DNA of 64,000 nt from Nitrosopumilaceae archaeon. GTDB taxonomy: Archaea; Thermoproteota; Nitrososphaeria; Nitrososphaerales; Nitrosopumilaceae. The stretch lies in NCBI GenBank assembly GCA_024644385.1, contig JAHELB010000001.1, positions 39,739 through 103,738 on the forward strand, read 5' to 3'. A program made the translations under genes and the position numbers. The notes beneath the pieces are model-generated. The model was given only the letters and a program-made list of their open reading frames with translations, did not search any database and was not told the origin of the DNA. This document shows positions 60,820 through 64,000 of this stretch, piece after piece. Numbering within the stretch: position 1 is the first letter of the stretch; each line of letters starts with the position of its first letter.

Positions 60820-60925
60820 GCCATTTTTAATTAAATGGATTTTTTGGTATCAAATTTAAAAACCAGTTTTCAACATTTCAAATTATTTTGAAGATTACTT
60901 TTCCATAGGAAAAAAGATCATTGAT

Positions 60926-61450
60926 ATGAATAAATTATTCGTGACTGTTATTAACAAAATTAGTAGAACTAATACTATGAAAAATAACAATATGTCGCAT
61001 CCATCTTCAAACGAAGTAATGAGACACTCAATAACTGCAAAACAAACCGTTGTATCCATACAAAATATCTCAAAGAACATCAGAGAATATTCTCTTAGAA
61101 TGAGAGAAACCATGGGTACCCTTCGTGAAAGTGGCGCTATCCCAGAGATGGCAGAAGCAATACGTGAAGCATCTTATGCTGTTCGAGATACTGCAAAAGA
61201 CATTAACGAAGCAACCATAGAGCTGAAGAAAAATGGTGTCATTGTAGATACTGCAAGTGCTGTCGAAAACACTCTGAAATCTGCAGAAGAATCAGTGAAA
61301 ACTGTAAAAGAAATTACGAATGATGCTGAAAAGGTATCACCAAACACCACAAAGGCAGTTCATGACGGGTTTCAAAGAGTTAGGAACGAAACTAGTCAGG
61401 TAACTGACAAAGTAATGAAAGATGTCAAAAACAAAGTAGGCTCAAAATGA
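60926..61450 (+). CDS. Hypothetical long-helix/coiled-coil protein
   Basis: Helical repeats MRETMGTLRESGAIPEMAEAIREASYAVRDTAKDIN; ATG 60977-60979 is a possible alternative start. Confidence 0.65.
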   Translation: MNKLFVTVINKISRTNTMKNNNMSHPSSNEVMRHSITAKQTVVSIQNISKNIREYSLRMRETMGTLRESGAIPEMAEAIREASYAVRDTAKDINEATIELKKNGVIVDTASAVENTLKSAEESVKTVKEITNDAEKVSPNTTKAVHDGFQRVRNETSQVTDKVMKDVKNKVGSK

Positions 61451-61794
61451 CTAACCACAATATGGGGAAAATAGGACCAAACTCAATCCTATCCATTCTT
61501 TCTATTTCTGATTCTGCAAAATTTAATGGATTTATTCACCTGTTAGAAATTACAATAAAAGTTGGAAAACATTTTCCGCTCATTATACTCTCCCTAACCA
61601 GTCTAAATCTTTTGTTGGCAGCTAATGACTTTTTTGCAAATAGCATTAATTTTGCGATACTTAATTCCATGTTTGCCACTGGGGGTTTTGTTTCCCTTGT
61701 ACAATTGTACCAGAGCCGTAAAGCCAATTCGGTTGGATATGGTTCCAATAATCTAGAAATTCAAACGAAACAACTGGAAGAATTCAGAAGGTAG
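61447..61794 (+). CDS. Hypothetical membrane protein
   Basis: ATGA overlap with the preceding stop; hydrophobic segments FPLIILSLTSLNLLLAANDFF and AILNSMFATGGFVSLVQLY. Confidence 0.65.
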   Translation: MTNHNMGKIGPNSILSILSISDSAKFNGFIHLLEITIKVGKHFPLIILSLTSLNLLLAANDFFANSINFAILNSMFATGGFVSLVQLYQSRKANSVGYGSNNLEIQTKQLEEFRR

Positions 61795-61805
61795 GTTGAA
61801 ACCAT

Positions 61806-62336
61806 ATGGAAGGGAGAAATACTAGTAAACTACATGAAATCAAAGAAACTGCATCAGATGCAGTAGAAATAATGCGTCAGCTAGGTACTCCAGGGGTACA
61901 AGATTCTTTGAATAAAGTAAAAGAAACTGCAACAGTGGTAAATGAAATTATACAAAATCTCAAAACACCAGAAATCATAAAGAACATTGAAAATTTTCGT
62001 TTGATTTCAGAAAATATGAATGAAGTCTCAACAAAGATGGAAAATACTATGGAAAGGCTAAGGGATACTGGTGTAATTGAAGAATCTACAGAATTAATAA
62101 AATCTGCAAAAAATCAAATCAATTCATTTGGTGTTGGTGAAGATAACATTAATGGTCAAGACCTCCGTGAGGTAAGTCTAGCTACTAAAGAAATGTTGGT
62201 ATCTCTCAAAGATCTAATGGTTGAATTACAAGTAACTGTAGCATCCTCTACAAGATCAGGAACCATTTGTAATGTAAAGGAGACTATCTATGAGGTCTCA
62301 GATATTTACAAAACAACAATAACACAGGCTAATTGA
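61806..62336 (+). CDS. Hypothetical long-helix/coiled-coil protein, related to 60926..61450
   Basis: MENTMERLRDTGVIEESTELIKSAKNQI resembles MRETMGTLRESGAIPEMAEAIREASYAV. Confidence 0.65.
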   Translation: MEGRNTSKLHEIKETASDAVEIMRQLGTPGVQDSLNKVKETATVVNEIIQNLKTPEIIKNIENFRLISENMNEVSTKMENTMERLRDTGVIEESTELIKSAKNQINSFGVGEDNINGQDLREVSLATKEMLVSLKDLMVELQVTVASSTRSGTICNVKETIYEVSDIYKTTITQAN

Positions 62337-62461: not shown

Positions 62462-63283
62462 TTATTCGTTAGAATTTCCTTTCCATATGACACGTTGTGG
62501 AAATGGAATTTCAATTCCTTCAGAATCAAGTGCATTTTTAATTACTTCCAGTAATATTGGCATGACTTCGGCTAGGTCATCACGTGGATGCCATACTCTT
62601 ACCCAAATATTCACGCTGTTATCACCAAGCTCCGTTACCCAAAATGTGGGGCCAGGTTCCATTAGAGAGTATGTTACATTTTTTTCAATTGCCTCCTTCA
62701 TTACTGCCATTGCTTTTCTGATGTCTTCCTTGTAGGCAATCCCTACTGTAACATCACTTCTCCTTACCTCAGATAATGCAAAGGTGCGGATATTGGATGT
62801 AAACACTTTTTCATTTGGAATCCTTACAACTGTTCCATCAAATTGTTGAATTCGGGAAGAAAAAGTGTTGATGTCAATTAAAGTTCCAGAGACACTTGAA
62901 TCTGGTAGTTCTACGTTATCACCCTGCCTCACTGGTTTTTCAATCATTAAGAACAAACCAGAGATCAAATTAGAAACTACAGATTGAGATGCAAAACCGA
63001 TTACAATACCCAAAAATCCTCCAGCTACAATCAACCCGCCCAGATCAATTCCTTGACTTGCAGTTGCCGCCAATAGAAAAATGACAATAATTCCATAATA
63101 GATCAACTTGTCAAGACTTTTTGCAGTATCCTTTGGAATGGTTGGTGCAAATCTTCTTTTGAAAACCATGCGAGCAATTCTTGCAATAATCACTCCTGCC
63201 ATTACAATTATTGCAGTGATTAGGATACGACCAACCGTAATTCCTGTATCCATTATTTGAGTATCTAAAATTTCAAAGGCCAC
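62462..63283 (-). CDS. Small-conductance mechanosensitive channel (MscS family)
   Basis: GLIVAGGFLGIVIGFASQSVVSNLISGLFLMIEKPVRQGDNVEL; IRTFALSEVRRSDVTVGIAY. Confidence 0.93.
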   Translation of the reverse strand: MAFEILDTQIMDTGITVGRILITAIIVMAGVIIARIARMVFKRRFAPTIPKDTAKSLDKLIYYGIIVIFLLAATASQGIDLGGLIVAGGFLGIVIGFASQSVVSNLISGLFLMIEKPVRQGDNVELPDSSVSGTLIDINTFSSRIQQFDGTVVRIPNEKVFTSNIRTFALSEVRRSDVTVGIAYKEDIRKAMAVMKEAIEKNVTYSLMEPGPTFWVTELGDNSVNIWVRVWHPRDDLAEVMPILLEVIKNALDSEGIEIPFPQRVIWKGNSNE

Positions 63284-64000
63284 TATTCAAAACCCCTATT
63301 CATGATGAATGTCTCTTTTATCGATTTAGGCTTTAGTCTTAGAGATAGATTCCATTTTTTTTCTTTTTTCGTCAAAATGACATGATGAATCTCTATTATT
63401 TTTCCTCCAGGTTCGTTTTTTATTTTGGCATCAATATCATCAATATGAGCCTCAAATGAATTTTGAAGATAGTACATCTCATGATGTCCCACAGGGAAAA
63501 CTAATTTCCCAACCGTAATTCCTTCGTTTAATTCGTTGGATATGGTTGCCCTAATCTTTGCAAAAACATATGGTTTAGGTTTTTCAGATTCCTCAAGTTG
63601 TGCTACTTTGCCATACATGCACAAATTTCCATTTTCAGGAGTTCCATACAAAGCAAACCTGGAATGCATTGGTTCGCATGTAAAGCAATCAAAAAAATCC
63701 CGGGTATTGTCATTATTTAAAACAAAAATCCCAATTTCAATGGGAAACTCCAACAACACACTAGATGCTGAATTTTTTTCAATAAAGAGTGACTCTTTTA
63801 GTCGTAAAAACATTAGATCATTTGTCTTTTTTGATGGGAGATTCAAAGGTAAAATTGGCGCAAGTTCTAATTGTAAAGTATCTTTTTTTCCTGGAATTGA
63901 CTTTCGTAATTCCTGACCTTCCGAGTTTTTTCTATAATATGAAAATTTGTTTGTTTTTTTCTCAATTAATATTTGAGTTTTAGGTAAATGTAGTTCTAAA
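63283..64000 (-). CDS. Hypothetical protein, partial (5' end beyond window)
   Basis: Frame stays open upstream of the track start 63846 to position 64000: ...LELHLPKTQILIEKKTNKFSYYRKNSEGQELRKSIPGKKDTLQLELAPILPLNLPSKK... Confidence 0.65.
   Translation of the reverse strand, partial: LELHLPKTQILIEKKTNKFSYYRKNSEGQELRKSIPGKKDTLQLELAPILPLNLPSKKTNDLMFLRLKESLFIEKNSASSVLLEFPIEIGIFVLNNDNTRDFFDCFTCEPMHSRFALYGTPENGNLCMYGKVAQLEESEKPKPYVFAKIRATISNELNEGITVGKLVFPVGHHEMYYLQNSFEAHIDDIDAKIKNEPGGKIIEIHHVILTKKEKKWNLSLRLKPKSIKETFIMNRGFE

Follow-up and report, generated by a model that had tools for sequence, protein, structure and literature searches.

A conserved three-gene module of ammonia-oxidising archaea that may encode a membrane-tethered helical scaffold

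In Bacillus, YtxG (DUF948) and YtxH are encoded in a small operon and are membrane-tethered, helical, apolipoprotein-like stress proteins. Apolipophorin-III is likewise built of amphipathic helices, each of approx. 30 residues, joined by short hinges, and the all-helical proteins of the PspA/Vipp1/ESCRT-III and BAR types assemble into coats on membranes. Few cells on Earth outnumber the ammonia-oxidising archaea, yet the organisation of their envelope inside the S-layer is poorly understood. Here, a locus is described from a 64,000-nucleotide stretch of DNA (the window) of a Nitrosopumilaceae genome (G000) that is closely related to, among others, San Francisco Bay Nitrosopumilus MAGs. An earlier note on this DNA had described related helical proteins at 60926-61450 and 61806-62336 on either side of a small membrane protein (the open reading frame 61447-61794), the first two genes overlapping by ATGA, followed by an MscS channel and an unknown protein in convergent orientation. 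All of these are present; the unknown protein belongs to DUF432, and the start of the first gene has been moved. The three genes are referred to as A, B and C:

60916..60957, non-coding: conserved element upstream of A (DNA alignment of 11 loci and pattern scan)
60977..61450, plus strand: gene A (corrected), 157 aa, four predicted helices (alignments and AlphaFold model)
61447-61794, plus strand: gene B, 115 aa, predicted hydrophobic helical hairpin (hydropathy and alignment)
61806..62336, plus strand: gene C, 176 aa, homologue of A (alignments and AlphaFold model)
62462..63283, minus strand: MscS-type mechanosensitive channel (Pfam MS_channel domains), convergent neighbour outside the module
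63283..63999, minus strand: DUF432 protein (Pfam PF04254, E 3e-24), running off the window, outside the module

No family above the cut-off was found for A, B or C in Pfam, NCBIfam, PHROG or PDB, and a literature search found no papers on these genes. They appear as an undescribed set of three protein families.

Organisation and conservation of the module

The stop codon of A and the start codon of B share ATGA, and B and C are spaced by 11 nt. In 17 loci examined, the genes follow the same order, A-B-C, with overlapping or near-touching ends: the A-B gap is -4 or -1 in 14 of them, and the B-C gap ranges from -4 to +31. Judged by this spacing, the junctions are of the translational-coupling type. 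Moreover, the pairwise distances among loci follow the same pattern in the three proteins (matrix correlation r 0.86-0.88, Mantel p 0.0002). The dN/dS ratios (0.14-0.38 for A, 0.22-0.64 for B and 0.10-0.26 for C) are well below 1 and indicate that all three genes are under purifying selection. By these comparisons, A-B-C is a real, operon-like conserved module. The gene-neighbourhood comparison proposed in the earlier note, which named a lack of co-conservation as grounds for giving up the cassette, thus came out in its favour.

The flanks behave differently from the module. On the plus strand, an ammonium transporter (Amt) gene and then a rhodanese gene lie 5' of A. Neither these nor the MscS and DUF432 genes are conserved across the other cassette loci examined, and none of them showed the MscS/DUF432 pair next to the cassette; the adjacency of this pair is therefore probably incidental. 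A link between the MscS channel and the cassette was rejected, as no MscS gene turned up beside it at the other loci examined. Three cassettes lie directly 3' of tRNA genes for Arg, Val and Asp (L029 8238-8313, L081 236-312 and L023 347-424), which suggests that tRNA-adjacent positions are insertion sites of the cassette.

The start of A had been placed at 60926, which would add 17 aa to the protein. This start is rejected: relatives carry in-frame stop codons between 60926 and 60976, while the DNA of this segment is strongly conserved in the 11 aligned loci. Translation of A therefore probably begins at ATG 60977, and the 17 extra residues are probably not translated. The upstream element contains the near-palindrome GAATAAATTATTC and a TATA-like TTATTAA at 60948-60954, centred approx. 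26 nt 5' of ATG 60977. Leaderless transcription is known in archaea, and if the A mRNA is leaderless from ATG 60977, the block GATCATTGATATGAATAAATTATTCGTGA...TTATTAAC lies where a TATA box and, 5' of it, a regulator site would be expected. The element probably serves as promoter and regulator site for a leaderless mRNA. A relaxed pattern of the element matches once in the source genome and lies ahead of A in eight of nine genomes, and a reversed control pattern gave zero matches in the same scan. A wide regulon was rejected, as the relaxed pattern gives only one or two matches per genome. A second copy, in G007 (G007:C101:23633-23674), stands ahead of a decayed A start.

The helical proteins A and C and the membrane protein B

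The motif shared by the two helical proteins is present as MRETMGTLRESGAIPE in A and MENTMERLRDTGVIEE in C. BLASTP of A against C gives E 5e-7, and hhalign of the two family profiles gives a probability of 95% and E 2e-8 over 49 columns. The A profile scores a median of 24.9 bits on real C proteins, against a maximum of 10.6 among 1000 heptad-phase shuffles; with 7-residue block shuffles, which preserve local motifs, the real median was reached in 1 of 1000. Because the heptad-phase shuffles score far lower, composition is excluded as the source of the similarity, and A and C are, on these scores, truly homologous. The description of A and C as two related, mostly helical proteins is borne out, and the reservation attached to it, that their similarity might not go beyond generic coiled-coil composition, falls away. 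The part common to both is the inter-helix hinge L-R-(E/D)-(S/T)-G-x-I.

Four helices are predicted in A, with hinges at SG, NG and SP, and six in C (residues 4-26, 29-52, 55-88, 91-109, 117-150 and 153-175), with TP/TG hinges. The AlphaFold models of both proteins contain helices only, with hinges at SG, TP, TG and NG motifs, and are of low confidence (A: pLDDT 64.8, pTM 0.45; C: pLDDT 57.5, pTM 0.27). Structure prediction, which the earlier note had suggested, thus agrees with all-helical proteins; these low-confidence models gave no PDB fold match at E <= 0.001, and a fold assignment from them was dropped on account of their pLDDT and the missing match. A PDB sequence search returned only designed coiled coils and similar proteins. 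Residues R70 and D71 of A and N60, E62 and N63 of C are invariant in the alignments. The window's A is mildly basic and its C acidic, a tendency that also holds across loci.

A hydrophobic period of 11/3 is typical of helices lying on lipid surfaces, and one of approx. 104 degrees is typical of packed coiled coils. Over most of A the periodicity is heptad-like (approx. 104 degrees), and the last helix has the 11/3 amphipathic period (97-99 degrees). Inspection of the A and C alignments revealed no hydrophobic segment; it is B, or at other loci a small peptide, that carries the membrane segment. The hydropathy profile of B has two hydrophobic stretches (residues approx. 43-62 and 70-88) separated by a short loop. 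Lys and Arg residues lie on both outer flanks of this hairpin, so that, by the positive-inside rule, both ends of B are probably cytoplasmic.

Distribution of the module and membrane partners of C

A search for C in 84,980 species genomes returned only Nitrososphaerota records, and C was found in 65 of 400 genomes of the class. In the collections searched, all three families are limited to ammonia-oxidising Nitrososphaerota. Named carriers belong to estuarine, freshwater/lake, groundwater and soil lineages, and the genome search found C to be missing from several complete Nitrosopumilaceae genomes. A viral origin of C was rejected, as no phage or IMG/VR relatives of C were found.

In Nitrososphaeraceae, A, B and C are often unlinked, and A is multi-copy, with up to nine matches per genome. 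Among 70 genomes of this family (threshold E < 1e-8), 30 have both A and C, 38 have neither, two have A only and none has C only; this agreement in 68 of 70 is inflated by relatedness because entire genera have or lack both. Two genomes of g47, a genus of carriers, have neither A nor C. Several loci are rearranged but linked: A-C-x-B beside a second A (L217; G163), A-x-C-B in a Nitrosotalea genome (L236; G375) and C-B (L227; G172). A and B are divergent at L221 and L229 (genomes G183 and G370).

Further small proteins were observed at some of these loci. A Lys/Glu-rich protein of 51-61 aa containing KEKFKEK is encoded in two clusters from distant genomes (L217 7802-7957 and L236 3001-3186). 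A small hydrophilic protein with the sequence KRDQALxDxTxGQFGEEPRPE adjoins A copies in two Nitrososphaera genomes (L217 6205-6399 and L224 5769-5954). In Nitrososphaeraceae, an EVE-domain protein is encoded directly 5' of C-A (L035 6087-6545; L089, L090, L114 and L219).

In Nitrosotalea and several soil lineages, C occurs without adjacent A or B. At 24 loci lacking A and B, on 22 distinct contigs because two loci repeat a contig already counted, a hydrophobic peptide of approx. 50 aa is encoded directly 5' of C, which suggests that C often has a small membrane partner. Such an ORF was found in none of the loci having B, and homology between B and the peptide was ruled out (hhalign probability 0.1%). 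This independent replacement of one partner by another is the strongest evidence that C may work with a small membrane protein, and it strengthens the earlier suggestion that the membrane protein recruits the helical ones. Both arrangements occur in genome G375, where one C is short and accompanied by the peptide (L142) and another is full-length and clustered with A and B (L236). Most peptide-linked copies of C lack its C-terminal helix (L083/L134 are the exception). The rule that this helix marks the presence of A holds in most Nitrosopumilaceae; as a strict marker it was rejected on account of G291, where a long C occurs with the small peptide and A is absent, and it is retained only as a lead. 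In Nitrososphaeraceae, neither B nor the peptide adjoins C at L089, L094, L100 and L101; adjacency of a membrane partner is therefore not universal.

Proposed role and comparison with known systems

It is proposed, with a probability of roughly 0.45, that the A-B-C operon encodes a membrane-tethered scaffold of the helical proteins A and C, with a role in stress or in the envelope. B, a small hairpin in the membrane whose two ends would be cytoplasmic, would be the docking site. C would be the core scaffold protein, with B as its membrane anchor or, in other lineages, the unrelated hydrophobic peptide encoded just 5' of it. A, mildly basic, would pair with its acidic homologue C. Both proteins would be chains of helices, each of approx. 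25-40 residues, with Gly/Pro hinges in between, and a flexible coat or scaffold built from the two may line the inner side of the membrane and support the envelope under stress. A and C carry no direct membrane-contact signal, and the argument from the partner is genomic, not biochemical; the clues to a stress role come from neighbours in other genomes, none of them from the source genome. The comparative support extends to membrane recruitment but not to the filament-forming rods envisaged in the earlier note. It is improbable, if conceivable, that A and C go further and co-polymerise into a hinge-jointed filament or coat, forming a lineage-specific membrane skeleton with an interchangeable anchor (B or the ~50-aa peptide) that is independent of Cdv/ESCRT and actin-like systems.

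A and C might instead be disordered or loosely helical amphipathic stress protectants, LEA- or apolipoprotein-like, which coat membranes without ordered assembly and which B only helps to target. For 12 of 22 A proteins, apolipophorin-III is a match that stays under the curated cut-off (best E 2.7e-6), and the period of the C-terminal helix of A, the low AlphaFold confidence for A and C and the extra Lys/Glu-rich protein in some clusters point the same way. However, the remainder of A is heptad-like, and the conserved hinges and the invariant residues of both proteins exceed what a protectant needs; such a role is considered rather unlikely. Alternatively, the module might be an accessory of iron/manganese and oxidative-stress handling that, for example, tethers Dps or metal transporters to the membrane. 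In G181, C is divergent from a Dps gene and B follows (L224 8138-8971), and Dps is divergent from C in a second Nitrososphaera genome, G183 (L222 8132-8668). A VIT1 iron/manganese transporter gene lies tail-to-tail with C or A in six loci (L035 7704-8453; L094, L097, L100, L101 and L106), and genes for Nramp and a DtxR-type regulator adjoin B and C in G069 (L036 999-3968). The best match of the G181 Dps is structure 8ff9, a bacterial Dps from P. aeruginosa. This match is consistent with Dps4, and the dps gene next to C and B in G181 is presumably NVIE_RS13730. Dps4 (NVIE_RS13730) is reported to be close to P. aeruginosa Dps and to be induced more than 6-fold in air-exposed, filter-grown cells (PMC11561398). 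However, no metal genes flank the cassette within the window, and the neighbour contexts are single observations that serve only as leads; moreover, several VIT1 loci may descend from one ancestral arrangement. A function in metal handling is accordingly judged improbable.

Patchy presence, non-conserved flanks, the positions 3' of three different tRNA genes and the decayed A start in G007 that carries a further copy of the promoter element would be compatible with a mobile toxin-antitoxin-like or defence module, in which the small membrane-active protein is the toxin and the helical proteins neutralise it. The divergence of A, B and C is, however, correlated and constrained rather than fast, and two helical proteins per membrane protein, together with many A copies without B, are unlike such a pair. 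PADLOC gives just weak coiled-coil matches (ZorA-tail and LmuB for A, none for B or C), and the absence of viral relatives of C speaks against this idea as well, which makes it very unlikely. Helical proteins of this kind yield many weak Pfam and PDB matches, as chance neighbours with generic coiled-coil similarity would; co-conservation, partner replacement and the shuffle controls have already refuted this, and its probability is negligible.

The role of the module is open to direct test, since a cultured Nitrososphaera appears to have several copies of A together with a C, and Nitrosotalea devanaterra a peptide-linked C. The swap of unrelated small membrane partners may be regarded as a natural experiment in which the recruitment of soluble helical proteins to an archaeal membrane can be studied.

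Among described proteins, Dps/ferritin is a neighbour of the module in Nitrososphaera and gives a weak match to the A profile; this match is not significant (E 0.25-0.7), and homology is not proposed. With the membrane-assembling PspA/Vipp1/ESCRT-III and BAR coats A and C share an all-helical make-up, but neither has a significant sequence or fold match to them, the fold comparison resting on low-confidence models: Snf7 matches occur in two of 40 C members (best E 2e-4), and BAR and Vipp1 appear only at E > 1, from a low-confidence model. Apolipophorin-III (PF07464) is the best recurring Pfam match of A and resembles it in its hinged amphipathic helices. A scores below the cut-off, however (20.4 bits for the window's A and 25.4 for that of L217, vs 36.3), and is encoded alongside a membrane hairpin. 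To YtxG/YtxH (PF06103, PF12732) the likeness lies in weak, sub-threshold DUF948 and YtxH matches in A, C and the small extra protein: DUF948 scores 10.7 bits in the window's A and 16.9 in C of L217, vs a gathering cut-off of 37.2, and YtxH at best 13.6 vs 37.5. DUF948 and YtxH proteins have their own N-terminal transmembrane helix, which is absent from A and C. In contrast to the Bacillus pair, the archaeal module has two paralogous scaffold proteins, and a separate protein seems to supply their membrane helix.
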